From NCBI GenBank assembly GCA_030704425.1, contig JAPDHM010000002.1, positions 558,001 through 622,000 on the forward strand: DNA of 64,000 bases, written 5' to 3'. Source of the stretch: Rhodobacteraceae bacterium IMCC1909 (GTDB taxonomy: Bacteria > Pseudomonadota > Alphaproteobacteria > Rhodobacterales > Rhodobacteraceae). The notes below the pieces were generated by a model. It was not told the DNA's origin. It was given only the letters and a program-made list of their open reading frames with translations, and did no database searches. Below are positions 2,689 through 48,957 of the stretch, one piece after another (the first letter of the stretch is position 1; every line of letters starts with the position of its first letter). The position numbers and the translations under genes are program-made.

Positions 2689-3744
2689 ATGGGCAAGTCA
2701 TTAAAAAAAAGAGCAACCATAGTTGATGTCGCAAAAGAGTGTGGAGTATCGCAAGCGACTGTCGCAAGAGTTCTAAGCGGCCAAACCGGTATCCGCACCA
2801 AAGAGAACACCAGAAAGCGTGTTTTGGAAGCCGCTAAAAAAGTTGGCTATCAGAGAAACGCCATCGCCGCTAATTTTAGGTTGCAGAAGAGCAATTCGAT
2901 TGCGGTCTCGATCGCCGACATAACCAACCCCTTTTTTCCCGAAGTAGTGAAAGGTATTCAGGAGGTACTTAGAGAAGCCGGCTACAGCATTGTCCAACTT
3001 TATAATGACTGGGACTCAGAAGTGGAACAGGAGTACTTTGACTACATGGTGCGCACATGCGTCGAAGGCGCGATAATTTCTCCGTCATCTTCTACAACTG
3101 TTTTTGACGTACTCAATTCGACCCCATTTGTGCTTCTGTCAAATTCAGATAAATTCGAGATGCACGATACTGTTGGCAATGACACTCGCAGCGGAATGCG
3201 CCTTGCTTTGGAACGCTTATACAAACTTGGGCATCGTCGCATTGCCCTTTTCGTTGGTGGTTCCATGAAATCGGGGGCAAACTGGAGGGCAGAACTTTTT
3301 CGTGAGTTCCATCGCGAACGCGGGTTATCAGTTGACCCAGAGTTAATACTGGAGAGTGACTATGGCGTCAGTTCAAAATCCTCTCTCGCCGCTGCGCGAC
3401 AGATCATGAATTCATTTCTTGACCGACAAGATTTGCCAACTGCGATTTTCTCCTCAAATGATATCCTGGCACTCGCAACGTTGCAGGTGGCTAATGACAA
3501 AGGGATCGGGGTGCCTGATCGTCTATCCGTTATCGGTATGGATGGGATTTTTTCGGGAGAGGTAAGCCATCCACCGCTAGCCACTGTTCAAAAAAATCGA
3601 AGAGAAATTGGTCGTACCGCTGCCCTTGCATTGTTGGATAAAATGAAATCCAAAGAAGGTGAACCAGCAAGAAGACAGTTATTGAGTTGTAAACTGCTTG
3701 AGCGGGGATCGATGGGTCCAGCACCAATGGCCAGCGAAGGCTAG
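2689..3744 (+). CDS. LacI-family transcriptional regulator
   Basis: This 351-residue protein has the normal family length. Residues about 10-30 form the helix-turn-helix (ATIVDVAKECGVSQATVARV), followed by a hinge and a periplasmic-binding-protein-like sensor domain from about residue 66. The sensor shows ITNPFFPEVVKGI, GHRRIALFVGG, FSSNDILALATL and RLSVIGMDG. The first residue of interest after the HTH is ARVLSG rather than the usual SRVLNG. It precedes the ComA-like/TTT operon in the same direction, and two TGATAAC-type palindromes lie in front of that operon's first two genes. It is therefore the likely repressor of that operon. The effector is unknown. Confidence 0.9.
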   Translation: MGKSLKKRATIVDVAKECGVSQATVARVLSGQTGIRTKENTRKRVLEAAKKVGYQRNAIAANFRLQKSNSIAVSIADITNPFFPEVVKGIQEVLREAGYSIVQLYNDWDSEVEQEYFDYMVRTCVEGAIISPSSSTTVFDVLNSTPFVLLSNSDKFEMHDTVGNDTRSGMRLALERLYKLGHRRIALFVGGSMKSGANWRAELFREFHRERGLSVDPELILESDYGVSSKSSLAAARQIMNSFLDRQDLPTAIFSSNDILALATLQVANDKGIGVPDRLSVIGMDGIFSGEVSHPPLATVQKNRREIGRTAALALLDKMKSKEGEPARRQLLSCKLLERGSMGPAPMASEG

Positions 3745-3930
3745 CTATCTTACCATGGGACTTGGCACAGGGGGGAATATAGTTTTGCCGTCAGATATGA
3801 CGGTTACGGCCAACACTAATTAATTCTGAACCCAATTTGCGTAAACAAAATTTAGTGCTGCTCCGTACACTTAGCCTTTGCCCGTACCAAATTCGCATTA
3901 CAATATTGATTCCGATAAGAAGATCGGGTG

Positions 3931-3965
3931 TTGACACTTCCCAAAACATAATGATAACGTTATCA
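3931..3965 (+). promoter_or_regulatory. Promoter and LacI-type operator of the ComA-like/TTT operon
   Basis: TTGACA at 3931-3936 is a consensus -35 box. The perfect 14-bp palindrome TGATAACGTTATCA occupies 3952-3965, covering the position where the -10 element should be. Binding there would block RNA polymerase. A one-mismatch copy occurs at 4925-4938. CG-centred palindromes are typical of LacI-family operators, and a LacI gene ends 200 bases upstream. The assignment of this regulator to this site is inference. Confidence 0.7.
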
Positions 3966-4047
3966 AAAATTAGAGTGAAAGTTGCTGAATAACGACATCA
4001 ATTTGGCAACCAGAGCTCAAATGAAATAATGAGCGAGGATCTCAAAG

Positions 4048-4908
4048 TTGTCGATGTCCAAGGTATTCGGTCTGAAAGGCATTGAGCCAAAGCCGAGAAC
4101 GACCAACCAGATCTGGGCCAAGGACGTGGGATATGATGAGGCACCATGGTATTACGAACGCATGGGCCTGACCGAGCTTGGAGATTTTTTGGACGTTGCA
4201 GGCGAGCGCATTGACTATGTGAAGATCGCAACCACGCAGGTATTGAACCACCCAGCGGAATGGGTAAAACGCAAGATTGAGCTCTACAAAAAGCACGGGG
4301 TCCGGCCGTATCTAGATCACGGGTTCTTTCTACGAGCCTACAAGAACGGGGTTGTTGATGAGGCCATCGAGGCAGGTGCGGAGCTTGGGTTTCCTGTGAT
4401 CGAACTCATGAACACTTTCGGCGACGTTGCTGATGAACAACTCAAAGCATGGCGTCAACGCGCTATAGATTGCGGGATGAGCATAATCTATGAGCACCAT
4501 CCCGAACGCGGATGGCGCAAGGGTCAGTCTGATATTGTGGATGTGCCTGCCACCGCAGTGGAAATCGCTCAAGGCGCAGAGCCGTTTTTGGCGCATGGTG
4601 CATTCACGCTTTTGATCGACCACGAAGAGATTGAGATACAGGAAGAGGCAGCAAAAGACGTGCTGAATGAAGTCCGCGAGATTCTGGGTAAAGATCGCGT
4701 GGCATTTGAAGTCACGTCGACCAAAGAAGCAGAGATGTTGTGGTATACGAACTTGTTGGACTGTTTCGAGATGTTCGGCAGTGACTGTAACGTCACGAAC
4801 ATCATGCCTAGTCAGGTCATGTTTATTGATCCGCTTAGGTCGGGTGAAAGGCCGGCGAATTTATTGTTTGACCGTTACCCGGAGCTGAACCGGGTGCGTC
4901 ACAAGTAA
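4048..4908 (+). CDS. Phosphosulfolactate-synthase-like (ComA-like) protein 1
   Basis: This 286-residue protein follows the ComA plan: an early strand IDYVKIATTQ, then HGVRPYLDHGFFLRAY, FPVIELMNTFGD, GMSIIYEHHPE, LLIDHEE, VAFEVTSTKE and a late GSDCNVTNI strand. ComA of methanogens is a TIM-barrel enzyme that adds sulfite to phosphoenolpyruvate to make phosphosulfolactate. Acidic and lysine positions at strand ends are kept, but the EISDG and TEVG signatures are changed (ELMNT, YEHHP), so the substrate may differ. It is the first gene of an operon with a TTT transporter and a second ComA-like gene. An ATG six bases further in is an alternative start. The function is not established. Confidence 0.65.
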   Translation: MSMSKVFGLKGIEPKPRTTNQIWAKDVGYDEAPWYYERMGLTELGDFLDVAGERIDYVKIATTQVLNHPAEWVKRKIELYKKHGVRPYLDHGFFLRAYKNGVVDEAIEAGAELGFPVIELMNTFGDVADEQLKAWRQRAIDCGMSIIYEHHPERGWRKGQSDIVDVPATAVEIAQGAEPFLAHGAFTLLIDHEEIEIQEEAAKDVLNEVREILGKDRVAFEVTSTKEAEMLWYTNLLDCFEMFGSDCNVTNIMPSQVMFIDPLRSGERPANLLFDRYPELNRVRHK

Positions 4909-4924
4909 TGAATTTGGTTAGCGG

Positions 4925-4938
4925 TGATAACGATATCA
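4925..4938. promoter_or_regulatory. Second LacI-type operator
   Basis: TGATAACGATATCA differs from the perfect palindrome at 3952-3965 by one base. It lies 16 bases after the first ComA-like gene and upstream of tctC. It could serve as an auxiliary operator for looping (about 970 bases apart) or control an internal promoter. Confidence 0.65.
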
Positions 4939-5037
4939 AATTTTTGAGCTTTAACGGAAATAATCGAGCTCGATCTGGGGATTGCGTGGGAAGAGTAACA
5001 TCAGCAAAGGGAGCGATCATTAGAAAACGATAACGTG

Positions 5038-5049
5038 CGTTTCGAAACG
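5038..5049. repeat. Perfect 12-bp palindrome upstream of tctC
   Basis: CGTTTCGAAACG is a perfect palindrome in the 290-base gap between the first ComA-like gene and tctC. It could be part of a third operator or a leader structure. No poly-T follows, so it is not an obvious terminator. Confidence 0.3.
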
Positions 5050-5197
5050 TATCATTTCGGATTGCGCCCAAAAGGGCCCCTGGAAGCGGCATCAATGTTT
5101 GCAGGGCTGCCACTCGTCAATGGTGCTGGGCTGTAATCCCCGCACCGCCAAACTCGGCTGCATAAAAGTCAAGCGGTCAACTTCTAAGGAGGATAAA

Positions 5198-6292
5198 ATG
5201 TTAAAGAAGACGCTAAAGACCATATCCGGCATGATTGCCGCAGGGGTATTCTCGGTATCGGCAAGCGCTGTGCTTGCGGAAGTGAATTTCGAGGGTGAAA
5301 CCGTAACAATCATCATTCCGTTCAAAGAGGGTGGTGGTACGTCACGCACGTTCCGTTTTTTCCAGCCTTACCTGTCCAAATATTTGCCAGGTAACCCAGT
5401 AATCCAGCTTCAGCACATGCCGGGCGGTGGCACGATCAAGGGCGGCAACTTTTTCCATGACAACCAGAAAACTGATGGAACATTTGCGCTTGCGACATCT
5501 TCATCCGTGAACATGCAGCAGGCAACCGGCAATCCTCTGGCCAAATTTGACCTGCTGTCCTACGAACCGGTTTTGTCGCTGGCGACCACGACCCACTGGG
5601 TTACGCATGCAGATCTGGCAGACGGGCCAAATGACGTTTCTGGCTTGCTGGAATTGCCAGTTGCCCTGTTCCCGTTCAAAACTGCCGCTTCGGCGGATTT
5701 GTTCCACCTTTGGATCTATAAAACATTGGGCATTGACGGTGCCCGTCCAATTCCTGGCTTGTCCAGCTCCGCTGGGTATCAGTCATTTCAGCGCGGCGAA
5801 TTGCAGATGGCGTCGCACGGAACAGGCAACTTCCTGAAGAAGGTCAGCAAGGATATTGCTGATGGAAAAGTGCACCAGTTCATGACGCTCGGTGTCTTGC
5901 AGCCAGATGGATCCGTACAACGTCCGTCCTATTCGCCAGATGCTCTAACCTTCCCAGAAATGTACGAAAAGGTGCATGGCAAGCCTCTGGAAGGTGCAGA
6001 GCGCGAAGCTTACGAAGTGATCGCAGCCAACTGGGGCCCTGCCTCCAAAGGTCTGGTACTGCCCACTGGCACCTCGGATGAAATCGTTGATGCGTGGCGC
6101 AAAGCGGTCGAGGAAATGACCAAGGATCTCGATTTCATGGATGCTGCCCCCAAGAATATCGGGCCTTTCCCGGTCGTGATTGGTGAAGACGTCCGCGGCA
6201 TCATCGGCAAGGCCGTGGATCTGTCTGACGCAAGTAAGCAGCAGTTCAACGATGCGATCGCGCATTACCAATTGACTTATCGTATCGAGTAG
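5198..6292 (+). CDS. TTT transporter periplasmic binding protein (TctC/Bug family)
   Basis: I start at the ATG at 5198 because AAGGAGGAT lies 6-8 bases upstream and a clean signal peptide follows (MLKKTLKTISGMIAAGVFSV, cleavage after VLA near residue 27). The open frame continues 33 codons further upstream without such features. The mature part shows VTIIIPFKEGGGTSRTFRFF and VIQLQHMPGGGTIKGGNFF, the substrate-binding pattern of Bug proteins that bind carboxylates. It is 364 residues, longer than the usual 320-330. It delivers ligand to the TctA/TctB membrane unit encoded next. The substrate is unknown; the ComA-like neighbours would fit a sulfonated or sugar carboxylic acid. Confidence 0.85.
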   Translation: MLKKTLKTISGMIAAGVFSVSASAVLAEVNFEGETVTIIIPFKEGGGTSRTFRFFQPYLSKYLPGNPVIQLQHMPGGGTIKGGNFFHDNQKTDGTFALATSSSVNMQQATGNPLAKFDLLSYEPVLSLATTTHWVTHADLADGPNDVSGLLELPVALFPFKTAASADLFHLWIYKTLGIDGARPIPGLSSSAGYQSFQRGELQMASHGTGNFLKKVSKDIADGKVHQFMTLGVLQPDGSVQRPSYSPDALTFPEMYEKVHGKPLEGAEREAYEVIAANWGPASKGLVLPTGTSDEIVDAWRKAVEEMTKDLDFMDAAPKNIGPFPVVIGEDVRGIIGKAVDLSDASKQQFNDAIAHYQLTYRIE

Positions 6293-6506
6293 ACGCAACG
6301 AGGTAATTACGAAACAGACTGGTCCCGAATTTCTGTTCGAGGCCAGTCAATTGCATAGCGCACCGCCAAAGCGTGTAACGACTGCGCCATCGCCAACAAT
6401 TCCTACGGACGCACATATGAGGCTGAATTTGCACTGAAACAGAAATTTAAGAGTAGCGCCGAAACATGTATGCGAATGTCGAAACGAATTCATTTAAGAG
6501 GTCGCC

Positions 6507-8498
6507 GTGGAAATTGAAATGTTCATGTCAGCGCTGACGCAGCTGTTTCAGATATCCCATTTCCCATATCTCATGGCTGGCGTATTTTTAGGGCTGACGC
6601 TGGGCATTCTGCCCGGTCTTGGCGGAACGTCGGGTCTCGCGATCCTGCTGCCCTTTGTCTACACCTTTGAACCAAGCGTCGCCTTAGCGATGATGATTGG
6701 TGTCCTTGCGCCGACAACTACTTCTGATACCTTTCCGGCGGTTTTGTTGGGTATTCCCGGAACAGCGGGCTCACAAGCGACTGTTTTGGATGGGCACCCT
6801 TTGGCCAAGAAAGGTGAAGCGTCGAGGGCGCTATCCGCTGCTTTTCTTTCGTCTCTTGTTGGTGGGTTGTTTGGAGCGATTATCCTTAGCGTCTCGATCT
6901 TCTTTGCAAAACCGCTGATCATGTCTTTTGGTTTTGGCGAACAGTTTCTTTTGATCATTCTTGCCCTTCTGATGATCGGTGCGTTGACGGGTGCCAACTT
7001 TCTGAAAGGTCTGGCCAGCTGTGTGATTGGTCTTGTCATCGGTACAATCGGTCTGGCCCAAATTACCGGAGAACCCAGATATACGTTCGGCACGTTGTAT
7101 CTTGTAGATGGATTCTCACTTGTTGTGATGGGGCTGGGGCTTTTTGCGGTGCCCGAGATTGTCAGTCTGCTCCAATCAAAGTCCACGGTTGCAGGCGGTG
7201 GTAAGCTTGAAAAAGGCTGGCTGCGCGGCATGCGCGATGCCATCAAGAATTGGTTTCTGATTATCCGTTGCTCGACTGTCGGCGTACTTGTAGGGGCGCT
7301 GCCGGGACTTGGTGGAACGGTTGTTGACTGGATCGCTTATAGCCACGCAAAACAGACAATCAAGAACCCCGAAACACTTGGCACCGGCGACATTCGCGGC
7401 GTCATTGCGCCGGAATCGGCAAATAACGCAAAGGAAGGCGGGGCGCTCATTCCAACGATCCTTTTTGGGATTCCGGGTTCCGGGAACAAGGTGCTTTTGC
7501 TTGGCGGTCTAGTGCTCGTCGGAATCGAACCAGGCATCGAAATGGTCACGACCCAGTTGGACATTACTTATTTAATCATATGGTCATTGGCGGTAGCAAA
7601 TGTGGTTGGTGCAGGTCTGTGCCTGTTTCTAGCGAGGCCAATGGCGCAGCTTACTCGCGTTCCATTCTTTATTCTCGCTCCCATCCTGGTCGTGCTGATT
7701 TTCTTTGCGACCTTCAATAACGGCCGCGACTGGATCGATTTTGTGGCCTTGATGTTTTTCGGTGCGGTCGGTGTGATGTTCAAGACTTACGGCTGGTCGC
7801 GACCCGCGCTTTTGATCGGTTTTTTCTTGTCATCAAAAATCGAATTGCTAAGCTATCAAGTGAGCGCAGCCTACGGTCTGTCCTTTCTGTATCGCACGGG
7901 GTCGATCATCCTGATCTTTCTGGCATTGGGCACGATATTCCTGCTTTTGCGGCAAAAAATGACACCGGATGGCAGGTCGACCGTGGAAGAGGCTGGCAAA
8001 CAGACCCTGTTCACGTGCTTTTTGGCACTGTTTCCCATTACCATGATCCTTCAGGTTGTGGCTCTGGATTTTCGCGCCAGCATCTATCCGATTGCTTTGA
8101 GCGGCGTGTTACTGTTGCTGCTTGTATCCATTGCGGGCCTGCAAATGGTGCAGCAACGACCAGAAATGCAACGCATCAATGACGCTAATATGGCCTTACG
8201 GACCATGTCCCGGAACATCTTTGAAAACCACGGCACATTGTATGATCAGGTGCTGGCCTTTGCGATGATCCCTGTGTTCCTTGTTTTGGTATTTCTGCTT
8301 GGATTCCCGATCGCGGCTGTGGCTTTGATCAACGGGTTTATCTTGATGCATGATCGCAGCAAATACCTAGTTTCGATCATCGTATCAGCGGCGGTTCTAA
8401 TCATTCTCTGGACGCTTTCAGGTGTTCTGACGCTGCAATATCCCGCTGGCATTATCGCAGATTTCTTGCCACTTCCATGGTGGCTGGGTGGCCGCTGA
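6507..8498 (+). CDS. TTT transporter membrane protein, TctA with fused TctB domain
   Basis: The 663-residue protein begins at GTG 6507 (AAGAG upstream; ATG at 6519 is possible). Residues about 20-500 are TctA: VFLGLTLGILPGLGGTSGLA, LAPTTTSDTFPAVLLGIPG, a second VGALPGLGGTVVDWIA repeat and many membrane helices. From about residue 505 a separate block of four hydrophobic segments matches the small TctB subunit, which is usually a separate gene. The fusion explains why no tctB is present. It forms the inner-membrane channel that works with the preceding periplasmic TctC, probably driven by an ion gradient. Confidence 0.85.
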   Translation: MEIEMFMSALTQLFQISHFPYLMAGVFLGLTLGILPGLGGTSGLAILLPFVYTFEPSVALAMMIGVLAPTTTSDTFPAVLLGIPGTAGSQATVLDGHPLAKKGEASRALSAAFLSSLVGGLFGAIILSVSIFFAKPLIMSFGFGEQFLLIILALLMIGALTGANFLKGLASCVIGLVIGTIGLAQITGEPRYTFGTLYLVDGFSLVVMGLGLFAVPEIVSLLQSKSTVAGGGKLEKGWLRGMRDAIKNWFLIIRCSTVGVLVGALPGLGGTVVDWIAYSHAKQTIKNPETLGTGDIRGVIAPESANNAKEGGALIPTILFGIPGSGNKVLLLGGLVLVGIEPGIEMVTTQLDITYLIIWSLAVANVVGAGLCLFLARPMAQLTRVPFFILAPILVVLIFFATFNNGRDWIDFVALMFFGAVGVMFKTYGWSRPALLIGFFLSSKIELLSYQVSAAYGLSFLYRTGSIILIFLALGTIFLLLRQKMTPDGRSTVEEAGKQTLFTCFLALFPITMILQVVALDFRASIYPIALSGVLLLLLVSIAGLQMVQQRPEMQRINDANMALRTMSRNIFENHGTLYDQVLAFAMIPVFLVLVFLLGFPIAAVALINGFILMHDRSKYLVSIIVSAAVLIILWTLSGVLTLQYPAGIIADFLPLPWWLGGR

Positions 8499-8534
8499 AA
8501 CCTTGCGGATAACCCATTTCGAAAAGGAAACAAA

Positions 8535-9347
8535 ATGACAAACCAAAAGAGCTTTGTAGAAGCACGAAACGGAATGATCGAAAGAGAGCCCAAACCACGC
8601 GAACGCGGCATCAACTATGTCCGTGCGCCAAAAACCTTGGGGCAATATTTTGTAGATTTCCTGACTTGCTACGGTGCGCTGACGGATATCGTCAAGCTGG
8701 GAACCAACCAGCTGACCTTTATCCCAGAAGACGAGATCAAAAAGGCAATTAAGTTCAGCCATGATCATGGTGTGCGTGTCGCCATCGGCAATCCCATTAT
8801 GGACCAGGCGCTGAGTGCAGGATCACAGGCGACCCGGGACGTTATCGATTACGCGGCTAGGTTGGGCCTCGACATCATGGAAATTTCGGTCATCGCCCGC
8901 ACCATCGATGACGAAGATTTGGCAGATTTGTTGGATTACGTGAACGGCAAAGGAATTAAGCCGATTGTCGAATGCGGATTGTCCTTTGCTCATGAACCCG
9001 TGGTCGATGGGCGCACATTCGCCAAACGTAAGAAGGCGCAGGCAAGGCGTGCTTTGGAAAACGGCGCGTGGAAGGTGCTTTTGGAGGCTGAGGGTGTTTA
9101 TGAAAACGTTAAGTCGGGCCAGGAACGCTGGGATTTTGTGGATGAATTCGCAGCGGACTTTGAGGTTCGCGACCTCATGTTTGAGGCAGACGAGCAGGAC
9201 GTCATGTCCTATTACGTAAACGCCTATGGGCCGAAAGTGAACGTATTAGTGGACAATTCGCAGGTCATGCAGATCGAAGCCGCGCGTCGCGGTTACGGGC
9301 CCTGTACGCTGACTTGGGCAAAAGCAGCCGTGTTTTCTAAAGACTAA
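8535..9347 (+). CDS. Phosphosulfolactate-synthase-like (ComA-like) protein 2
   Basis: This 270-residue protein is clearly of the ComA fold and is not a recent copy of the gene at 4048. It keeps the order LTDIVKLGTNQLTFIP, HGVRVAIGNP, GLDIMEISVIARTI, GIKPIVECGLSF, AWKVLLEAEGVY, DLMFEADEQD and VNVLVDNSQV. The MEIS, VECG and LLEAEG segments are closer to classical ComA (VEIS, TEVG, IIEGRE) than the first paralogue. AAAGGAAACAAA lies directly in front of the ATG. It is 36 bases after the TctA/TctB gene and belongs to the same operon. Two divergent ComA-like subunits in one operon could form a hetero-complex or catalyse two steps; this is inference. Confidence 0.65.
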   Translation: MTNQKSFVEARNGMIEREPKPRERGINYVRAPKTLGQYFVDFLTCYGALTDIVKLGTNQLTFIPEDEIKKAIKFSHDHGVRVAIGNPIMDQALSAGSQATRDVIDYAARLGLDIMEISVIARTIDDEDLADLLDYVNGKGIKPIVECGLSFAHEPVVDGRTFAKRKKAQARRALENGAWKVLLEAEGVYENVKSGQERWDFVDEFAADFEVRDLMFEADEQDVMSYYVNAYGPKVNVLVDNSQVMQIEAARRGYGPCTLTWAKAAVFSKD

Positions 9348-9383: not shown

Positions 9384-9488
9384 TTGAAACTTCTTGATGA
9401 CGATAGGCTGTTCCCGACCAAACTAAAAGGACTGGGATTGGCAAGGGATCTTACTGTCAACCTCGCCAAACGAGCCTATCGGTTATGA
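9384..9488 (+). pseudogene. Uronate isomerase (uxaC), internally deleted remnant
   Basis: From TTG 9384 to TGA 9486-9488 the frame reads LKLLDDDRLFPTK and then GLARDLTVNLAKRAYRL. The first part is the N-terminus typical of uronate isomerase, before the HGHxDP zinc motif. The last part matches the family's C-terminus; the intact copy at 38801 ends LARQAYRIEV. More than 400 codons in between, with all catalytic residues, are gone. The TGA overlaps the ATG of the following uxuB fragment, as is normal for coupled uxaC-uxuB genes. The function is lost. Confidence 0.6.
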
Positions 9489-10387
9489 AATCAGAAAATA
9501 AAAACAAGCTTTGCAGATCTACACCCGCTCCGAAAACCGGAATCGTACATCTGGGGCTTGGTGCTTTTTTTCGAGCGCACAGCGCGATATACATTAAGGA
9601 AGCCATGGCGCATTCGGGCGGCGACTGGGGTGTGGTGGGCGTCTCAATGCGGTCCCCGGGTGTTCGTGATAAGCTGGTTAAACAGGGCAGGGACAGTACA
9701 AGACGCCCTGACTTTTCAGCAGATGAATATCGCTCACTGATCCGCACATTGCCAAGCTGGATTGATAAGGGGCGTGAGGGCAAATCACGCGATATGCGTC
9801 ACCTGCTGCGCGACTATGTTTTGATACTGGCCAACACAGGTATTCGTCACGGAACGGAAGCTGATAATCTACGCTGGAAACACATCACGCTGTTTGAAGA
9901 AAAAGGTGACGTGTTTTTGGAAATGAGTGTGCGTGGTAAGACGGGCAGGCGGGACATTATCTGTCATAGTGGCACCGTCAATTATCTCAAGCGCATCCAA
10001 GATTGGTGTCCTGACGTTGCTGATATGAGCTTTGAAGATCTCATCAAAGCTAAGATTGATTTGCCAGTGTTCAGATTGCCAGATGGCACATCAAGCCAAA
10101 ACCTAAGACAGACGTTCAAGCGGCTTATGATTGATACTGGCTTACTCACTTGTCCACGTACAGGGCAAAATCGAACGCTTTACAGCTTCAGGCACACCTA
10201 TGCTACATTTGCACTGCTCAACGATGGTATGGATATTCACACGCTGGCCATACAGATGGGTACCAGCATTGCTATGATTGAGCGTCATTACAGCCATCTT
10301 ACGCCACGCTTGCGTAAAGAGATGCTCACAGGCAAACGCTATGAATTAAGTAAAGAGGAGTTTGATGAGTTTACTGAGATCCAATGA
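9485..10387 (+). pseudogene. In-frame chimera: fructuronate reductase N-terminus fused to tyrosine recombinase C-terminal part
   Basis: Residues about 15-66 (GIVHLGLGAFFRAHSAIY, GDWGVVGVSMRSPGVRDKL) are the NAD-binding start of the mannitol dehydrogenase/UxuB family. From about residue 68 (base 9690) the protein becomes a phage-type integrase. It has an LRDYVLILANTGIRHGTEADN stretch with the first Arg, then LYSFRHTYATFALL (HxxR with Tyr/His) and MIERHYSHLT with the nucleophile Tyr. The integrase lacks its N-terminal arm- and core-binding domains, and the reductase lacks its catalytic half. The 300-codon frame is intact, so a hybrid protein could be made, but neither activity is expected. The junction lies near 9680-9692. 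Confidence 0.75.
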
Positions 10388-10984: not shown

Positions 10985-12198
10985 CTACACAGCCAATTAG
11001 TATGTGGCATGGGGCGGGCGTTGCGCTTGTTTGTGGCTCACTGATCCTCTTGATCTCTTTGGGCATTCGACACGCGTTCGGGCTCTTTCTGCAACCTGTG
11101 AGCATGGATCAGGGTTGGGGACGCGAGACGTTCGCGTTCGCTATCGCTCTGCAAAATCTCGTCTGGGGAGCGAGCCAACCCTTCACAGGCATGTTGTCGG
11201 ATCGCTTCGGCGCCAAACCAGTCGTAGTGTTTGGGGCTTTGCTTTATGGCGCGGGGCTGTGGATGATGAGTGTCGTTGGTGGTGAAGGTGTTTTCATCCT
11301 TAGTGCTGGTGTGTTGATCGGGCTTGGCTTATCTGGCACCACCTTCCCTGTGATCTTTGCCGCCATCTGCCGCCTTGTGGCACCGGAACAGCGATCGCTT
11401 GCGATGGGGATAACCATGTCCGTGGGCTCTTTTGGACAGTTTGCGATGTTGCCTATATCACTTGGGCTGATCGTTGCGTTTGAATGGCAAACCGCCTTGG
11501 TGGCCCTCTCCATATTGGCCTTGACGATGTTCCCGCTTGCCTACGGTATACGCAACCCACCCGCACCAATCTTCAGCAGTCATGAAGATGTGTCGCTCGG
11601 CCAAGCCCTGCGTGATGCTTTTGGACAGCGGGACTTCTGGCTCTTGTCATTCGGTTTCTTCGCATGCGGCTTTCAAGTCGTCTTTATTGCCGTACACCTG
11701 CCTGCTTTCCTCTCTGATGAAGGCGTGGGCAACGGCGTGGCGACCATCGTTCTGGCGTTGATCGGGTTGGTGAACATCGCAGGCACCTATTATGCAGGCC
11801 TTTGGGGCGGACGGCATCGCAAACCGATGCTGCTCTCATGGATATATCTTGGTCGTGCGGCGGCCATCGCGGCATTCGTTCTCTTGCCGGTTACGGCAAC
11901 CTCCGCATACATCTTCGGTGCAATCATGGGACTTTTTTGGCTCTCTACCGTTCCGCTGACTAACGGTACGGTAGCGTCCGTCTTCGGCGTAAAACACATG
12001 TCGATGCTGGCGGGATTAGTTTTCTTCACCCACCAGCTCGGCTCCTTTGCTGGCGGCTGGATGGGAGGTTGGCTTTATGACCGGACGGGCAGCTACGATA
12101 TCGCCTGGGGCATTGCGATTGGCCTGAGCATTGTGGCGGCTGTCTTGAACTGGCCAATCACGGAGCGAACCCTAGCGGAGCGGAGAGCTGCGATATGA
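10981..12198 (+). CDS. Major facilitator superfamily transporter
   Basis: I take ATG 10981, overlapping the marR stop, rather than the longer frame that overlaps marR by 115 bases. The product has 405 residues with about 12 membrane segments, GMLSDRFGAKPVVVFGALLY as the MFS loop 2-3 motif and a related repeat (GLWGGRHRKPML) in the second half. It resembles the oxalate/formate-antiporter and monocarboxylate branch of MFS. It sits in the inner membrane; the substrate is unknown. A tiny membrane protein gene overlaps its stop. Confidence 0.85.
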   Translation: MTTQPISMWHGAGVALVCGSLILLISLGIRHAFGLFLQPVSMDQGWGRETFAFAIALQNLVWGASQPFTGMLSDRFGAKPVVVFGALLYGAGLWMMSVVGGEGVFILSAGVLIGLGLSGTTFPVIFAAICRLVAPEQRSLAMGITMSVGSFGQFAMLPISLGLIVAFEWQTALVALSILALTMFPLAYGIRNPPAPIFSSHEDVSLGQALRDAFGQRDFWLLSFGFFACGFQVVFIAVHLPAFLSDEGVGNGVATIVLALIGLVNIAGTYYAGLWGGRHRKPMLLSWIYLGRAAAIAAFVLLPVTATSAYIFGAIMGLFWLSTVPLTNGTVASVFGVKHMSMLAGLVFFTHQLGSFAGGWMGGWLYDRTGSYDIAWGIAIGLSIVAAVLNWPITERTLAERRAAI

Positions 12199-12320
12199 GC
12201 TGTACTTCTATACTCCAAGTGGTCGCAGCAGCGTCTTTAGTTATGTTGTTAGGATCGCTATTCTTACTATATCAGAATCCACTGTTCGAGATTTATCTGT
12301 CCAACTGGGGGCTTTGTTAG
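12195..12320 (+). CDS. Small single-span membrane protein
   Basis: ATG 12195 overlaps the MFS stop (ATGA). The 41-residue product has one hydrophobic segment (VVAAASLVMLLGSLFLLY) and ends in FEIYLSNWGLC. The tight overlap, membrane character and the aromatic/Trp-Gly-Leu-Cys end suggest a real small protein accompanying the transporter rather than a chance frame. I recall similarly short proteins with such ends in this bacterial group but cannot name a family. Confidence 0.5.
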   Translation: MSCTSILQVVAAASLVMLLGSLFLLYQNPLFEIYLSNWGLC

Positions 12321-12425
12321 TACAATTTCCCAAGAGAGGTCATCGATGTATTTCGCAGCATCCTTTACTCTGGGCTCAAAGCGGATATCCGCAGACTTCG
12401 TTGTGATCGATTAACGACTGAGTTA

Positions 12426-33076: not shown

Positions 33077-34285
33077 TTACACCTCCGATGCATGAGCGCC
33101 GAAACTGGCCATCAGACCGCGCAGCTCGGCCAAGCCGCGCATACGCCCAATCAGCGGATAGCCCGGCGTGCTATGCCCGCCAAGATCACTGAGCAACTCT
33201 TGGCCATGATCCGGTCGCATTGGAATTTGCCAATCCGCACGTCCCTCGGCACGGCGGCGTGTTTGTTCGGCCATCAAGGCCCGCACGGTACCCACCATAT
33301 CCGTATCACCCTCAAGATGGGGTGCCTCAAAGAAATCTGGCCGCGCCGCATCTGATCCGGCGATGCGTTTGGTATTGCGCAAATGGGCGAAATGGATACG
33401 CGGTCCATGGGTTTTGACAAAGGCGGGCCCATCAAAATCTTCCGCAACGCCCAAGGATCCAGTGCACAGCGTTGCACCATTGGCAGGCAGATCCACCGCG
33501 TTCAAGACCAAGCTGTAATCGGCACAAGAGGACATCACCCGCGGCAGGCCCAAAAGAGAAAACGGCGGGTCGTCAGGGTGACAACACAGGCGCAGACCCA
33601 GCGCCTCAGCGCAGGGGGCAACTTCAGACAGAAAATCGATCAAATGAGATCTAAGCTGCGCCCGTGTGATGCCCTTGTAGCTGTCCAATAACGCGCGCAC
33701 ATCGCCCAAGCTCCAGCTGTCATTGGCGCCCGGCAACCCCGCGATAATATTGCGCTGCAGCTGTTTTTTTCGATGATCAGAAAGGGCATTAAAGCGCTCC
33801 GCAGCCGCAGCGCGCTGGGCCTCACTATAGCTTTCAACTCCCTCTTCGCGCTGAAGAATATGCAAGTCGAAGACGGCAAAGTCGATCAAATCAAATCGCA
33901 TCGCGGCGCCACCATGGGGTTGCTTGGCGCGCAGATTGGTCCGGGTCCAATCTAAGATTGGCATGAAATTATAGCAAATGGTTGTGATGTTTGCGGCCGC
34001 GAGCGCTTCAAGGCTGGCCTTATAGGCCGTGATATGCGCCCGCATCTCAGGTCCTTGCGTTTTAATGGCTTCAGAGACCGGCAGGCTCTCCACGACATCC
34101 CATTCATAGCCCGCAGCCCGCAAAATCCTTTGCCGCTCGAAAATCTGAGCCGCGCTCCAGACCGTTCCCGGCGGCCTCTCATGCAGCGCGGTGACAATCC
34201 CTTCAACGCCCACTTGATGCAGATCATCCAAGGGAATTTGATCCCCAGGCCCAAACCAACGCCAACATTGCTTCATGGCAACCAT
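33077..34285 (-). CDS. uxuA: D-mannonate dehydratase
   Basis: The 402-residue protein matches UxuA length and pattern: WRWFGPGDQIPLDDLHQVGV at the start, GYEWDVVESLPVSEAIK, TICYNFMPILDWTRTNL, LRLCCHPDDPPFSLLGLPRV with metal ligands, IHFAHLRNTKR and RPDHGQELLSD. It dehydrates D-mannonate to 2-keto-3-deoxygluconate. Its start overlaps the 3' end of the upstream Gfo/Idh/MocA gene by 13 bases, showing that it belongs to a tightly packed operon running left from 37336. Confidence 0.93.
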   Translation of the reverse strand: MVAMKQCWRWFGPGDQIPLDDLHQVGVEGIVTALHERPPGTVWSAAQIFERQRILRAAGYEWDVVESLPVSEAIKTQGPEMRAHITAYKASLEALAAANITTICYNFMPILDWTRTNLRAKQPHGGAAMRFDLIDFAVFDLHILQREEGVESYSEAQRAAAAERFNALSDHRKKQLQRNIIAGLPGANDSWSLGDVRALLDSYKGITRAQLRSHLIDFLSEVAPCAEALGLRLCCHPDDPPFSLLGLPRVMSSCADYSLVLNAVDLPANGATLCTGSLGVAEDFDGPAFVKTHGPRIHFAHLRNTKRIAGSDAARPDFFEAPHLEGDTDMVGTVRALMAEQTRRRAEGRADWQIPMRPDHGQELLSDLGGHSTPGYPLIGRMRGLAELRGLMASFGAHASEV

Positions 34286-37336: not shown

Positions 37337-37436
37337 CGCCCCCCCCTGTCTTGCTTTAATTTTGACCCATTGCGCTGCAAAGATGCAAGCTGCAATATAA
37401 AGTCCAAAGGCAAATATCGCCGCCCGGGGGATGGAC

Positions 37437-38801
37437 ATGACAGGCACTCTAAGCACAATCGCTGAGCGACTGTATCTCAGCATGAAAGAGCTACCAATTG
37501 TGTCCCCCCATGGGCATTGCGACCCCAGTTGGTTTGCGCAAAACCAACCTTTCGCCAATCCTGCTGCGCTTTTGGTCACGCCGGATCACTATGTGTTTCG
37601 TATGCTCTATGCCCAAGGTATCCCCATGGCAGATCTTGGGATTGGCGCGCCTGGCGCTCAGGCAGATCCACGCGAGGTATTTCGCCTCTTCGCCGCACAT
37701 TGGCACTTGTTTCTCGGCACGCCCACCCGGCTGTGGATGGAGTATGTGTTGCGTGAAACATTGCAAATCTCGCAGCCCCTCACTGCGCAGACCGCAGATG
37801 CGATCTACGACGACATCTCGGCACGTTTGCAGCAAGCGGAGTTTTTGCCCCGTGCACTGTTTGAGCGCTTTAACATTGAAACCCTCGCCACCACCGACTC
37901 GGCCTTGGATGATCTGGCCCACCACAAGAGCCTTCGCGCCAGCTATTGGCCCGGCCGGGTGATCCCAACCTTTCGCCCCGATGGGGTGCTCGATCCGCTC
38001 GATCCAAATTTCGCCGCTAACCTTGCGCAACTGGCAAAGATCACCGATCACAGCCTCGACAGTTTTGACAGCTATCTGACCGCTTTGCGCATGCGCCGTG
38101 CGGAGTTCATAGACTGCGGCGCAACCGCCACCGATCATGCCATTGATATCTTGCACACCGAATGGCTCCCAGATCCGGGGCCGCTCTATCTCAGCGTGGC
38201 AAAGGGCACAGCCACCCAAGAGGAGGCCCGGCGCTTCTATGGCCATATGCTGATTGAAATGGCCCAGATGTCTATCGAAGATGGGCTGGTCATGCAGCTC
38301 CATGCGGGCAGTCGCCGCAACACCAACCGCACAATTTTAGACAGGTTCGGCCGTGACATGGGCGCCGATATCCCCCTCACCACCGATTGGGTGAATGGTT
38401 TGGACGCATTGCTCAACCGGGTTGGCAATTCTACGGAGCTGCGCCTCATTCTTTTCACGCTCGACGAAACCACCTATGCGCGCGCTTTGGCACCTATGGC
38501 GGGCCATTGGCCCTGCTTGCGGATTGGGCCGCCTTGGTGGTTTCACGACAGCGCCAATGGAATTGCACGCTATTTTGATCAAGTGGTTGAGACCGCCGGC
38601 TATTTCAATCTTGCTGGGTTCAACGATGACACCCGCGCTTTTCTCTCTATACCGGCCCGCCATGACCTTTGGCGGCGCGGGGTGGCCCTGCATTTGAGCC
38701 ATCAAATCGAACGTGGTGCTTTTGGCCTCTCCGACGCTGAGGATCTCGCGCCGCTCCTGGCGGTTGATCTGGCGCGGCAAGCGTATCGGATCGAGGTTTA
38801 A
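37437..38801 (+). CDS. uxaC: Uronate isomerase
   Basis: Glucuronate or galacturonate isomerase that makes fructuronate or tagaturonate. The protein shows LPIVSPHGHCDPSWFA with the metal-binding HxH, LVTPDHYVFRMLYAQGI, MQLHAGSRRNTN, and WWFHDSANGIARY near the end. I choose ATG 37437, which has GGGGGA six bases upstream; the ATG at 37431 is possible. The usual DRLFP segment before the isomerase core is missing, so the N-terminus is about 20 residues shorter than typical. The stop directly abuts the following reductase gene. Confidence 0.9.
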   Translation: MTGTLSTIAERLYLSMKELPIVSPHGHCDPSWFAQNQPFANPAALLVTPDHYVFRMLYAQGIPMADLGIGAPGAQADPREVFRLFAAHWHLFLGTPTRLWMEYVLRETLQISQPLTAQTADAIYDDISARLQQAEFLPRALFERFNIETLATTDSALDDLAHHKSLRASYWPGRVIPTFRPDGVLDPLDPNFAANLAQLAKITDHSLDSFDSYLTALRMRRAEFIDCGATATDHAIDILHTEWLPDPGPLYLSVAKGTATQEEARRFYGHMLIEMAQMSIEDGLVMQLHAGSRRNTNRTILDRFGRDMGADIPLTTDWVNGLDALLNRVGNSTELRLILFTLDETTYARALAPMAGHWPCLRIGPPWWFHDSANGIARYFDQVVETAGYFNLAGFNDDTRAFLSIPARHDLWRRGVALHLSHQIERGAFGLSDAEDLAPLLAVDLARQAYRIEV

Positions 38802-40001
38802 ATGGGGCAGATTGTTCACTTCGGCCTTGGCAATTTTGCCCGGGCCCATCTATTGGATTACACAGCCGATGCTGGCGGCGACTGGCAGGTCATTGGTGTC
38901 AATCTTCGCTCCAGAACCACGCGCGATGGTCTGGCGGCACAGGACTATGCCTATGCGCTCAAGGTCCAAGGTGTTGGGGTCAAGCAGATTGCAGTGATAA
39001 ACACCATTCTTTTGGCCTCAGAGGGCCAACAGCCTATTTTACAGGCTATGGCGACTGCCGATATCATCTCGGCAACCGTCACCGAAAAGGGGTACCATCT
39101 GGATCAACATGGCCAGCTTGACTTGCAAGACCCCGTGATCGCCGCTGATCTCACTGGCCTGCCCCGGCGCAGCCTCATCGGTTTCATCGCCCATGACCTT
39201 GCCCAAAGAGATCGGCCTGTCACGATCTTGAGCTGTGACAATCGCCCGGGCAATGGCGACGCCTTGCGTCAGGCCGTCCAGCAATTTGCGCAGGCAGCAC
39301 ATTTGACTATTGATTGGAGCCTGGCACGGTTTCCCAACGCCATGGTTGACCGGATCACGCCGGCAACCACCGACCTTATCCGCCAAGAGTGCAACGACCC
39401 AATGGCTGTGCCCACCGAGGCGTTTCGGGAATGGGTGATTGAAGATTGTTTTGCCGGACCACGCCCCGATTGGCCAGATGTGCAATTTGTCCAAGACGTG
39501 CGGCCCCATGAGCTGCGCAAATTGCGCATGCTCAACGGCGCGCATTCATTTCTCGCCTATGCCGGTCTCGCGCAGGGGTATGACTTTGTTCATGAGGCCA
39601 TTTCAGATCCGCAATTGCGCCGCCAAGCCCTGTCTTTGATGATGGAGGCTGGCGCCACCTTGCCCCGAGAAATCCAGGACCAAGTGCCGGCCTATGCACA
39701 AGCGTTGCTCGTTAGGTTTGACAATAAGGAACTGGCCCATCGCTTGGATCAAATCGCAATGGATGGCAGTCAAAAACTTCCCTATCGAATTTTGGACACC
39801 CTGCGCCTAGGCGCTACGCCCGTTTTGATCTCAGCCATACGCGCTTGGATGTCCCATTGCATCGCCCAAACCGCACAGGGTAAAAAGCTGAATGATCCTT
39901 TGGCAGAGGATATCGCGAGGGCCGCAAACTCCGCTCAGCCAGAGCGCAAGTTGTTACAGCTGATTGGCGCAGAGGATTTGGCGCCGCTCATTTTGGAATG
40001 A
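38802..40001 (+). CDS. uxuB: Mannitol-dehydrogenase-family fructuronate/tagaturonate reductase
   Basis: The 399-residue protein begins IVHFGLGNFARAHLLDY (dinucleotide loop), then GGDWQVIGVNLRS, LSCDNRPGNGDALR, FPNAMVDRITPAT, FAGPRPDWPDVQFV and the active-site KLRMLNGAHSFLAY. It is some 80 residues shorter than many UxuB proteins, mainly at the C-terminus. It should reduce fructuronate to mannonate and possibly tagaturonate to altronate, because both dehydratases (UxuA, UxaA) are present while no second reductase is. Its start follows the uxaC stop without a gap. The last 14 bases overlap the convergent kdgK gene. Confidence 0.85.
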   Translation: MGQIVHFGLGNFARAHLLDYTADAGGDWQVIGVNLRSRTTRDGLAAQDYAYALKVQGVGVKQIAVINTILLASEGQQPILQAMATADIISATVTEKGYHLDQHGQLDLQDPVIAADLTGLPRRSLIGFIAHDLAQRDRPVTILSCDNRPGNGDALRQAVQQFAQAAHLTIDWSLARFPNAMVDRITPATTDLIRQECNDPMAVPTEAFREWVIEDCFAGPRPDWPDVQFVQDVRPHELRKLRMLNGAHSFLAYAGLAQGYDFVHEAISDPQLRRQALSLMMEAGATLPREIQDQVPAYAQALLVRFDNKELAHRLDQIAMDGSQKLPYRILDTLRLGATPVLISAIRAWMSHCIAQTAQGKKLNDPLAEDIARAANSAQPERKLLQLIGAEDLAPLILE

Positions 40002-40851
40002 TCGCACCGCGATATTGCACCACCCGCGCCGCCAGCACATGCCCCGCCTGGAGAGCCGCCGCTTGGCCCTTACCCGACAAGAGCGCGCCCAAATAACCAC
40101 CATTGAAGCTGTCGCCTGCCGCGGTTGTGTCCAGAACTTCTGTTACAGGTTCATATTGCGCGACAACCGGCTCCCCGAGGGATAAAGGCCCGCGTGCACC
40201 ACGTTTCAGCGCCCCTGATTTGGCTTGTGTCAAAAACCGCTGCGCGACCTGTGCCTCTGTCTCACCAAACACATCCATTTCGTCATCAATAGATGGCAAA
40301 GAGATGTCGGCCCGCTGCCAAAACGCGCCTATGATTTTGCGAGCCGTCGCGCGATCCTCCCATAGGTGCGGCCTATAGTTGCTGTCAAAAATAACCTGAA
40401 TCTGCGCCGCATTCAGCCACTCCAAAAGGGCCAACCGTAAGGTTTGCGGTAAAATTGCAAGCGTGATCCCAGACAAATACAGGCCATCAAATTGCTCCAA
40501 AAAGTCAAAATCTGCATCTGAAAACATCTGGCGTGCGGCAGAGTCACTACGCCAATAGGTGAAACTGCGCTCCCCATCTGGCGCGGTATTAATGGCATAA
40601 AGCCCCGGTGATTTATCTGCGATACGCCGAATATTGGAATGGCCCAAATCATTGGCTGCGATAAAGTCCACAATGCGCTTTGAAAACATATCCTGCCCAA
40701 GACAGGTCACATAATCGACCGTGATGTCCGGCAAACTGCGTTTGAGATAGATGGCTGTATTGAGCGAGTCGCCGGCCACAGCCAGATGCGCCTGATCACC
40801 TTCCATCGACAATTCGATCATGGCTTCGCCTATGCAGGCAATACGCTTCAT
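39988..40851 (-). CDS. kdgK: 2-keto-3-deoxygluconate kinase (PfkB family)
   Basis: I start at ATG 40851 (MKRIACIGEAMIELS), overlapping the transporter stop; the longer frame is antisense to that gene's start. The 287-residue kinase has the PfkB substrate end (GDSLNTAIYLKRSL), YWRSDSAARQMF as in KDG kinases, and the C-terminal signature DTTAAGDSFNGGYLGA with the catalytic Asp. It phosphorylates KDG to KDPG, the common end of both uronate branches. An aldolase for KDPG is not in this window. Confidence 0.88.
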   Translation of the reverse strand: MKRIACIGEAMIELSMEGDQAHLAVAGDSLNTAIYLKRSLPDITVDYVTCLGQDMFSKRIVDFIAANDLGHSNIRRIADKSPGLYAINTAPDGERSFTYWRSDSAARQMFSDADFDFLEQFDGLYLSGITLAILPQTLRLALLEWLNAAQIQVIFDSNYRPHLWEDRATARKIIGAFWQRADISLPSIDDEMDVFGETEAQVAQRFLTQAKSGALKRGARGPLSLGEPVVAQYEPVTEVLDTTAAGDSFNGGYLGALLSGKGQAAALQAGHVLAARVVQYRGAIIPK

Positions 40852-41729
40852 TTTTGCTCCTTGCGCCAAATGATCAACCCAGCGCTCATGATCACCATCG
40901 CCCCCAAAATTGTGCCCGCATCTGGAACCGTGCCGAACAAAAGATAGCCCCAAATCGCGACGAAGACCAAAAAGGAATAGGTAAATGGCATCAGCTGATT
41001 GGCGGTACCAAAGCGGTGGGCATTGGTCAAAAGTTGGTGACCGCCCCAGCCCAAGACCCCCAGGCTGACCAGCACAACCATGCCCCAAATGGTGTCAGGC
41101 TGTGTCCATGTCCAAATTGCAAAGGGTGCCATCAACGCTGTGCCGATAAACCCCATGTAGAACTGCATGGTCTCCACCGCCACAATGCCGGACAATCGAC
41201 GCGTCATGATCGAATAGAGCGCCAGCGCGACCGCATTATACATAATCATCAGCATGGCCGGGTGAAAGGCCGTCCCAAAGGGGCGGACAACGATCAAGAC
41301 GCCGATAAATCCCAAGAAAATCACGCCCCAGCGCCAGGGCTCCACTCGCTCACGCAGAACGGAGACCGACAGAAAGCACACCACCACCGGGCTGGAAAAC
41401 ATTATGGCCGAGACCACAGTCAGGGGTAGAAACTGCAAGGCATAAAAGTTTGACAGGGTGGCAGAAACCAAGAGCAAGGCTCGGCTGATCACTTGCCAGA
41501 CATGCCCTGTCTGGAACCGCTCGAAATTAAATCCGTCTTTAGAAATCACACCAATGGATATCACCAAATGCCCCGCATAGCGCATGAAGGCCAATTGAAA
41601 GGCCGAAAACCCTGCCATAGCCAACCATTTTGCACCGGTATCCACCCATGAGAACAAAAGCCATGCGGCCAGCATCAAAAGAATGCCAAGGCGCGGCAGG
41701 TCCGCCATAGATTTTGCGACAACCGCCAT
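40848..41729 (-). CDS. EamA/DMT-family transporter
   Basis: This 293-residue protein has ten membrane segments in two repeats (WVDTGAKWLAMAGFSAFQLA and FTYSFLVFVAIWGYLLFGTV in the second). It is co-transcribed with kdgK (its stop overlaps the kdgK start) and with the dehydrogenase upstream, two bases away. It may export a by-product or import a sugar-acid intermediate; the direction is not readable. Confidence 0.85.
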   Translation of the reverse strand: MAVVAKSMADLPRLGILLMLAAWLLFSWVDTGAKWLAMAGFSAFQLAFMRYAGHLVISIGVISKDGFNFERFQTGHVWQVISRALLLVSATLSNFYALQFLPLTVVSAIMFSSPVVVCFLSVSVLRERVEPWRWGVIFLGFIGVLIVVRPFGTAFHPAMLMIMYNAVALALYSIMTRRLSGIVAVETMQFYMGFIGTALMAPFAIWTWTQPDTIWGMVVLVSLGVLGWGGHQLLTNAHRFGTANQLMPFTYSFLVFVAIWGYLLFGTVPDAGTILGAMVIMSAGLIIWRKEQK

Positions 41730-41731
41730 GG

Positions 41732-42619: not shown

Positions 42620-42654
42620 GGTCGTCCCTTTTTAAAATTTTCTGAATGAGCGCA

Positions 42655-45158: not shown

Positions 45159-45249
45159 CTCAATCCCTACACTTACATCCTCGGAGCGCCTATGACCGCT
45201 ACGGGCGTGTTAAAATGCAAAACTCACCGGCACATCTTACGCCTTTGGA

Positions 45250-47663: not shown

Positions 47664-47699
47664 AAGGGCACTTCCTGAAATTATTGAGAAGGATAAAAA

Positions 47700-47734
47700 G
47701 GCGACCAGCCCGAAAGGATCGGGCCGGTCTTTTG
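47700..47734 (-). terminator. Hairpin between dctP and dctQ, likely attenuating terminator
   Basis: On the minus strand GACCGGCCCGA pairs with TCGGGCTGGTC around a short TCCTT loop (one mismatch) and is followed by GCCTTTTTA. It lies between dctP (upstream) and dctQ (downstream). Partial termination here would give more binding protein than membrane subunits, as is common in transport operons. Confidence 0.7.
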
Positions 47735-47744
47735 ATTTCAGCTT

Positions 47745-48770: not shown

Positions 48771-48957
48771 AATGTCCTCCCAGACTTTTAGTGTTTGTTT
48801 TGAACGCTTTAACACGTTTTCACAGGTATTGTTCTGCGAGGTTAGGATGACGAATCGAGATCATCAAGTGAAAAATGGAATTTTTAAAATTTTCGAGATT
48901 TTTATCTAATGTCGAAATATTGCTCGTAATTTTCTAAAAATATGCTAAAATGCTTCC

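Follow-up and report, generated by a model that had tools for sequence, protein, structure and literature searches.

A LacI-linked tripartite tricarboxylate transporter module with two remodelled ComA-family proteins and a likely tie to glucuronate breakdown

A stretch of 64,000 nucleotides from Rhodobacteraceae bacterium IMCC1909 (contig JAPDHM010000002.1, positions 558,001 to 622,000; hereafter the window) carries at positions 2689-9347 five genes, all with open frames on the + strand. They encode a LacI-family regulator, ComA-A, the binding protein (TctC) of a tripartite tricarboxylate transporter (TTT), a fused TctA/TctB membrane protein and ComA-B (Table 1), ComA-A and ComA-B being members of the phosphosulfolactate synthase family PF02679. 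Comparison with related loci and known systems suggests that these genes form a module under LacI control, apparently mobile, that takes up a uronate-type sugar acid and channels it into the glucuronate pathway, a reading to which we assign a probability of about 0.57. A first-pass annotation had correctly placed two ComA-like proteins around TctC and TctA/TctB in one direction behind LacI. It had also called the two enzymes divergent, which holds for their sequences (25% identity by BLASTP) and not for their direction of transcription. Each part of the module belongs to a known kind; we have seen no description of the combination, or of the function, probably new, of the two ComA clades.

The link to uronates comes from the genes next to the module in two relatives. 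In Ruegeria sp. HKCCD8929 (locus L006) the operon continues after ComA-B with uxaC, uxuB and uxuA, and a kdgK-like gene stands divergent beside lacI; in L008, a 9.2-kb contig from a metagenome-assembled genome of the Porticoccaceae, the genes uxaC, uxuA, uxuB and kdgK come after ComA-B in that order. The L006 UxaC (572.6 bits, cut-off 387) and the UxuA of both loci (460.6 bits in L006, cut-off 199.6) score above their NCBIfam cut-offs. For UxuB and KdgK the corresponding models give the best hits without reaching the cut-off, and the L008 UxaC was identified by its identity to that of L006. The cores of the two loci are close to one another (ComA-B 84%, TctAB 80% and UxaC 76% identity), whereas their UxuA (45%), UxuB (39%) and KdgK (35%) proteins are distant. 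Because distant copies, in a different gene order, lie beside such a close core, the comparison suggests that the uxuA, uxuB and kdgK genes joined the same core more than once, separately.

Damaged copies of the same genes are found in two further loci. In HTCC2150 (L009) ComA-B is followed by a truncated uxaC, a 240-aa fragment (71% identity over 211 aa). In the window, a uxaC scar and a 5' remnant of uxuB stand behind ComA-B (Table 1), and the frame at 9485-10387 runs from ~68 uxuB codons into a phage-type integrase, with a Mannitol_dh match over residues 19-73 (24.5 bits, below the cut-off of 27) and a Phage_integrase match over residues 80-273. Across the seven loci with a clade B gene, uxaC is intact in two (L006 and L008), truncated in one (L009) and reduced to a scar in one (the window). 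The window strain has a second uxaC, uxuB, uxuA and kdgK set at 33-41 kb (Table 1), so the module could still work without uxaC and uxuB of its own. Searches of the strain's own genome with the UxaC and UxuA of L006 gave one match each, both in this second set and thus inside the same window as the module. We base the uronate link on these observations taken together: the intact uxaC, uxuB and uxuA in the operon with kdgK beside it in L006 and L008, the truncated and scarred copies in L009 and the window, the single UxaC and UxuA matches of the own genome, an operator copy at the L006 kdgK that is shared with the module, the absence of K137 and R170 from A and B, and low dN/dS values (for all three see below). 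To these we add a published precedent for a TTT that serves uronates, in the form of alginate oligosaccharides (PMC13390454).

We infer that LacI binds conserved palindromes. One such site lies upstream of ComA-A and a second, nearly the same in sequence, upstream of tctC (Table 1); positions 3952 and 4925 are the only exact copies of the motif in the own genome. A wider operator regulon was considered and rejected, since no further exact copy exists there. The motif upstream of A recurs in L006, L033, L034, L091 and L092, and with one mismatch in L007. At the place before tctC, TGATAACGATATCA is also found in L006, L007 and L033, and TGATAACGTTATCA in L034 and L091, so that both sites are paired in L006, L007, L033, L034 and L091, with L092 showing its one visible site. 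In L006 a third exact copy stands between kdgK and lacI, by our estimate ~65 bases before the likely kdgK start. HTCC2150 instead carries TGAGAACGTTCTCA three times, once upstream of tctC and twice immediately upstream of lacI. Its LacI and the L006 protein share only 48% identity; regulator and operator seem to have evolved in step. Within the window alone the motif, which was chosen by eye, is barely beyond chance (six matches at up to two mismatches, a number reached in one of 100 shuffles), and more weight falls on its reappearance at corresponding positions in other loci. An exact site on contig 93 of genome G266 falls inside a coding frame whose translation resembles a cytidine deaminase, and was taken as chance; three one-mismatch sites examined in G266 and in genome G206 revealed nothing relevant.

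The module seems to be maintained by selection, because the ratio of nonsynonymous to synonymous substitution rates (dN/dS) of its five genes against L006 and L007 is low, 0.03-0.09 in nine of ten comparisons and 0.03-0.06 for ComA-A; these ratios are rough, with dS at 0.9-1.6 and ComA-B versus L007 saturated. No Pfam model matched TctC at E<=5, and the protein was identified through plasmid relatives with 29-33% identity. Among the best 30 of 61 such records, 27 are annotated as TTT substrate-binding protein or tricarboxylate transporter; the match of TctC to PDB chain 6hke is weak (E 0.0041). The TctB part of the fusion scores 18.7 bits, under the cut-off of 29.1, and TctAB relatives on plasmids show 41-55% identity among the 15 of 69 records listed. 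Fused TctAB proteins are described as rare in a review (PMC5812351).

Both ComA-like proteins lie far above the curated cut-off of PF02679 (25.2 bits; Table 1), which bears out the family assignment of the first-pass annotation, and a profile search of the whole 3.27-Mb genome gave no further PF02679 match. However, on the phosphosulfolactate synthase equivalog TIGR03849 they reach only 58.4 bits (A) and 56.2 bits (B), against a cut-off of 280. Three comparison ComAs score 306 (L037), 233 (L038) and 231 bits (L039), the last two also below 280 although taken as genuine. K137 and R170 (M. jannaschii numbering), the former of which we take to be catalytic in phosphosulfolactate synthase, are absent from all six A rows and all six B rows of the alignment and present in four of four reference ComAs (three of them picked by neighbourhood; B. 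subtilis ComA is not included). Position 137 is E in A and S or A in B, and position 170 is E in both. The core residues D40, K43, E103, E133, E205, N224 and R240 are retained in A and B, and A has a cluster of His, Asp and Glu residues. The loss of K137 and R170 and the low TIGR03849 scores make the sulfite chemistry that had been proposed for the pair unlikely. Plasmid relatives of A and B are annotated as phosphosulfolactate synthase, a label that the sequence evidence says is misleading for both clades.

The ComA TIM-barrel fold, as in M. jannaschii 1QWG and B. subtilis 1U83, was confirmed for ComA-B; the predicted structure of ComA-A has a predicted local distance difference test score of 49, too low for reading the active site. 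When profiles of the two clades were searched against the PDB, convincing E-values were confined to ComA structures, D-psicose 3-epimerase being a weak match to clade B (E 0.036). In a tree of 45 rows, A and B are well supported clades of eight and seven rows, respectively. The sister group of B consists of four rows (Salinibacter L012, Methylosinus L057, Halorussus L058 and L056), each with an MmgE/PrpD gene within 5 kb. The L035 and L036 fragments and the M. jannaschii row are in neither this tree nor the preliminary one. A recent duplication of one gene, with A and B as a single clade, is disfavoured by the approximately unbiased test (p-AU 0.022), in which the hypothesis was set after the preliminary tree, the long-branched L055, L043 and L060 were excluded and, according to a program warning, long branches meet next to clade B. 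The A/B pair looks assembled rather than duplicated in place.

Matches to PF02679 occurred in 12 of 394 genomes in a family sample (11 above the cut-off), in 19 of 385 of a class sample (17 above) and in 5 of 398 of a phylum sample (3 above); these samples overlap, and each contains the window's own genome. ComA-B was found in 2 of 61 relatives, namely the own genome and one distant match, and in none of the 19 other genomes of the genus. ComA-A matched in 3 of 361 genomes of an order sample (the own genome and two distant relatives at 26%), in 2 of 16 genomes of the genus of G206 and in 2 of 7 of the genus of G266. A contig scan with a single protein query detects close relatives only, and Gammaproteobacteria were sampled in that scan and in the phylum sample alone. 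Clade A comprises eight loci (the window, L006, L007, L010, L033, L034, L091 and L092) and clade B seven (the window, L006, L007, L008, L009, L033 and L091), with L008, L034 and L092 ending at contig borders. The neighbourhood survey called for by the first-pass annotation shows the pair kept with LacI and the TTT genes in five loci (the window, L006, L007, L033 and L091), all with the complete five-gene module, LacI and A being oriented away from TctC-TctAB-B in L033 and L091.

Integrase or recombinase genes stand near the module in the window and L033 (by Pfam) and in L008, L009 and L091 (by reading of translations), and further integrase and transposase-like frames lie downstream of the window module. 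Lateral movement fits the data, because the module is scattered in its occurrence and ComA-B is shared at 84% identity by the Ruegeria and Porticoccaceae loci, with the caution that L008 may be assigned to the wrong host. No relative was found in viral contigs, and none of ComA-B in phage records. The members of the pair also occur singly. On plasmid pAtS4c of Allorhizobium ampelinum S4 (L010) A is present, and a search of the plasmid, not of the chromosome, with B found nothing. There the A gene (11929-12801) is the last of an ABC (ATP-binding cassette) sugar importer operon, directly before traR, an arrangement that we take to resemble opine loci.

In the mechanism that we propose, LacI would act as a repressor at the TGATAACGWTATCA sites that precede comA-A and tctC, and a uronate-type acid would enter through the TctC/TctAB transporter. 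ComA-A, ComA-B or both would then convert this acid to D-glucuronate or another substrate of UxaC or UxuB, and the product would pass UxaC, UxuB, UxuA and KdgK. In the window strain, where uxaC and uxuB of the module are destroyed, the complete set at 33-41 kb would take over. The ComA family works by abstracting a proton next to a carboxylate and by adding to an unsaturated (enol) acid; on a uronate, chemistry of this type would act at C5 (epimerisation) or at C4 (elimination/hydration). A more specific proposal, which we offer tentatively and with clearly lower confidence, is that A and B form a hitherto undescribed entry to the glucuronate pathway, either as an L-iduronate C5 epimerase or as an elimination/hydration pair that removes a 4-O-substituent from a uronate via a 4,5-unsaturated intermediate, with a dedicated TTT importer on an apparently mobile island. 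Two successive steps by A and B are possible. The obligate hetero-enzyme of A and B is not upheld, since HTCC2150 has B without A and the Allorhizobium plasmid has A without B. The first-pass annotation had also expected the import of a sulfonated or sugar carboxylate; carboxylate import is plausible and the uxaC, uxuB, uxuA and kdgK genes of the two relatives back the sugar half, while the sulfonated half is not borne out. In the open-access literature we found nothing that joins the phosphosulfolactate synthase family to uronates or to TTT, and nothing on 4-O-methylglucuronate catabolism or on iduronic acid catabolism with glucuronate isomerase.

Several observations weigh against a uronate substrate. 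In three of the five full modules (L007, L033 and L091), BLAST recognised no uxa or uxu gene in the adjoining sequence. Searches for UxaC covered the own genome, the L033 genome, HTCC2150 and G206. One UxaC is encoded elsewhere in the L033 genome (58% identity to the L006 protein), and HTCC2150 has a second, full-length UxaC elsewhere, as well as a second cluster similar to that of the window. G206, which has A, LacI, TctC and TctAB, gave no UxaC match in a genome that is 96% complete, a result that speaks against a strict link. HTCC2150 possesses LacI, TctC, TctAB and B and lacks A, with one PF02679 match in its genome, and the host assigned to L008 may be wrong, the locus being a 9.2-kb contig of a metagenome-assembled genome. 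Six plasmid regions around the nearest TTT relatives hold a sensor kinase with a regulator (five of six), 4-oxalomesaconate tautomerase (four of six) and TcuAB (two of six), which points to tricarboxylates as the background and makes a plain monocarboxylate less likely. Similarly, according to the same review (PMC5812351), characterised TTT substrates with one exception carry two carboxyls or other groups (sulfate, amide), unlike a plain uronate; sulfolactate (via SlcHFG) and galactarate/glucarate are among those it names. A 2026 report describes a TTT binding protein for unsaturated alginate oligosaccharides in Vibrio sp. C42 (PMC13390454). The tricarboxylate background and the uronate link would be compatible if the uronate carried a second acid group.

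The same TTT neighbourhoods also favour a substrate of the di- or tricarboxylate kind, such as aconitate or tricarballylate, with A and B acting as carboxylate lyases or isomerases and the uxa/uxu genes as incidental cargo of the island. The MmgE/PrpD genes within 5 kb of all four rows of the sister clade of B, and the three full modules without recognised uxa/uxu neighbours, point the same way. We nevertheless consider this rather unlikely: incidental cargo leaves unexplained why L006 and L008 combine one and the same core with distant uxuA, uxuB and kdgK copies, and why the kdgK of L006 shares the operator of the module. Import of a sulfonated carboxylate, for instance sulfolactate, with A and B as phosphosulfolactate synthase-like enzymes that either make this substrate or release sulfite, is very unlikely. 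Membership in PF02679, and the import of sulfolactate by the TTT system SlcHFG in Roseovarius and Chromohalobacter (PMC5812351), are consistent with such a role, but the TIGR03849 scores of A and B fall far short of those of L037, L038 and L039, K137 and R170 are replaced in both clades and kept in all four references, and we came across no gene of a sulfonate pathway near the module, although no search was aimed at such genes. Finally, the uxaC scar, the uxuB-integrase fusion and the downstream integrase and transposase-like frames could mark the operon of the window strain as a decaying, functionless remnant. This is highly improbable given five open core genes with dN/dS of 0.03-0.09, the presence of both operator-like sites and a second uronate pathway available to take the product.

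Two narrower explanations assign definite reactions to the ComA-like proteins. A 4-O-substituted uronate (an ether or a sulfate) might be processed by A and B in sequence, one eliminating the substituent to give a 4,5-unsaturated acid and the other hydrating this to glucuronate. Like phosphoenolpyruvate, a 4,5-unsaturated uronate would be an enol ether beside a carboxylate, and the scheme would account both for two family members of different clades and for a second acid group on a TTT substrate. The unrelated ulvan dehydratase P29_PDnc dehydrates glucuronic or iduronic ends to an unsaturated residue, possibly reversibly (PMC8511951), and 4 of the 39 sources compared have a sulfatase gene in the vicinity of a ComA-family gene, three of these with TTT genes. 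However, those sulfatases accompany other ComA clades, and the occurrence of B without A in HTCC2150 and of A without B on the Allorhizobium plasmid speaks against the scheme, which we judge unlikely. Alternatively, one ComA-like enzyme might be a C5 epimerase for a free uronate, turning L-iduronate into D-glucuronate, and the operon would serve iduronate utilisation. C5 adjoins the carboxylate, where the family chemistry would be expected to act, UxaC would be the next enzyme, and the catabolic reactions of L-iduronate are called unclear in a review (PMC6353982). A single enzyme would suffice for this reaction, though, and no polysaccharide-degrading gene was noticed near the loci, for which no dedicated search was made; we regard it as quite unlikely.

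Several known systems resemble parts of the module. The usual glucuronate pathway, UxaC-UxuB-UxuA-KdgK, is represented by the genes that accompany the module in L006 and L008 and that sit at 33-41 kb of the window; we know of no ComA-like step in it. The ComAs of M. jannaschii (1QWG) and B. subtilis (1U83) are of the same Pfam family as A and B, share the fold of B and have their core residues retained in both, but A and B differ from them in lacking K137 and R170 and in equivalog scores far below the cut-off. The ComAs of L037, L038 and L039, of the same family and host class as the window, keep K137 and R170, unlike A and B, and are likely genuine sulfonate makers. The L037 gene stands beside Lyase_1/DUF7714, that of L038 beside a 2-phosphosulfolactate phosphatase gene, and that of L039 likewise by BLAST cluster. 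Tricarballylate/aconitate-type TTT loci (L063-L068) have related TctC and TctAB proteins (at 29-33% for 30 of 61 and 41-55% for 15 of 69 records listed) and are partly accompanied by a sensor kinase/response regulator, tautomerase and TcuAB, where the window module has LacI, ComA-A/B and uronate genes instead. SlcC, ComC and SuyAB, which we take to be the partner enzymes of SlcHFG, were not noticed in the module loci, where no dedicated search was made for them. SlcHFG itself is a TTT importer for an acidic substrate like that of the module, a likeness by description, not sequence (PMC5812351). The alginate-oligosaccharide TTT of Vibrio sp. C42, again likened by description, likewise serves a uronate pathway through KdgK, but that system employs alginate lyases, KdgF and DehR, and phosphosulfolactate is not mentioned in the text of PMC13390454. 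P29_PDnc, also likened by description, sets a precedent in that it dehydrates uronic acid residues reversibly at C4, but it acts on oligosaccharides (PMC8511951).

Other ComA-family genes stand in different surroundings. In L032, L035 (a fragment), L053 and L054 they lie near sulfatase genes, with TTT genes as well in three of the four loci; three sulfatases scanned from these loci score 234-270 bits on a choline-sulfatase model with a cut-off of 433. The sulfatase-linked genes are possibly another ComA subfamily, for sulfate-ester acids. ComA-family genes adjoin MmgE/PrpD genes, or are one gene apart from them, in L011, L012, L040, L042, L055, L056 and L057 (by annotation, Pfam or BLAST cluster), and in Halorussus L058 the distance is at most 5 kb. 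In Natrinema L060 (5980-8765) a ComA-family gene lies near genes for a TauE/SafE sulfite exporter, a CoA transferase and a TAXI-TRAP (TRAP-associated extracytoplasmic immunogenic; tripartite ATP-independent periplasmic) transporter, which makes it a better candidate for sulfonate metabolism.

Around the second hexuronate set, at 33077-48815, the window further contains four GFO/IDH/MocA oxidoreductases, TRAP transporter genes (45250-48815) and a galactarate/altronate dehydratase-like gene whose product reaches 375 bits against the model for galactarate dehydratase (cut-off 731). A sulfatase frame at 56368-57462 aligns to profile positions 149-300 of 301 only, its N-terminal part seemingly missing, and a protein of the dimethylsulfoniopropionate demethylase kind is encoded at 19554-20696 (373 bits, cut-off 410).

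Table 1. Features of the module and of the second hexuronate locus, in window coordinates
Feature	Position	Strand	Remarks
LacI-family regulator	2689..3744	+	PF00356 helix-turn-helix 46.2 bits (cut-off 27), PF13377 111 bits; just outside the range of the first-pass annotation
Operator-like site TGATAACGTTATCA	3952..3965	.	Exact palindrome upstream of ComA-A
ComA-A, PF02679 protein, active site remodelled	4048..4908	+	PF02679 127.2 bits; alternative ATG start at 4054
Operator-like site TGATAACGATATCA	4925..4938	.	Second palindrome, upstream of tctC
TctC-like periplasmic binding protein	5198..6292	+	ATG behind AAGGAGG; plasmid relatives at 29-33% identity
Fused TctA/TctB membrane protein	6507..8498	+	TctA PF01970 403 bits; C-terminal TctB part weak
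ComA-B, second PF02679 protein, other clade than A	8535..9347	+	PF02679 150.4 bits
uxaC scar	9384..9488	+	35 codons; first ~20 and last ~14 joined in frame, middle lost, compared with L006 uxaC
uxuB 5' remnant (fructuronate reductase), end approximate	9485..9688	+	82% over 68 aa to L006 UxuB
UxuA mannonate dehydratase	33077..34285	-	Sole UxuA match in genome; TIGR00695 437.5 bits (cut-off 199.6)
UxaC glucuronate isomerase	37431..38801	+	Sole UxaC match found in genome; NF002794 462 bits (cut-off 387), scored from base 37500
UxuB-like reductase	38802..40001	+	Fructuronate reductase model 238 bits, best hit, below cut-off 603
KdgK-like 2-keto-3-deoxygluconate kinase	39988..41088	-	NF052444 267 bits, best hit, below cut-off 400

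L-iduronate is abundant in ulvan, and the reactions of its microbial breakdown are described as unclear in a 2019 review (PMC6353982). If our reading is true, an enzyme pair that brings an unusual uronate to the UxaC pathway would address the question of how L-iduronate is broken down, and uronate chemistry would be added to a family known mainly for sulfonate synthesis.

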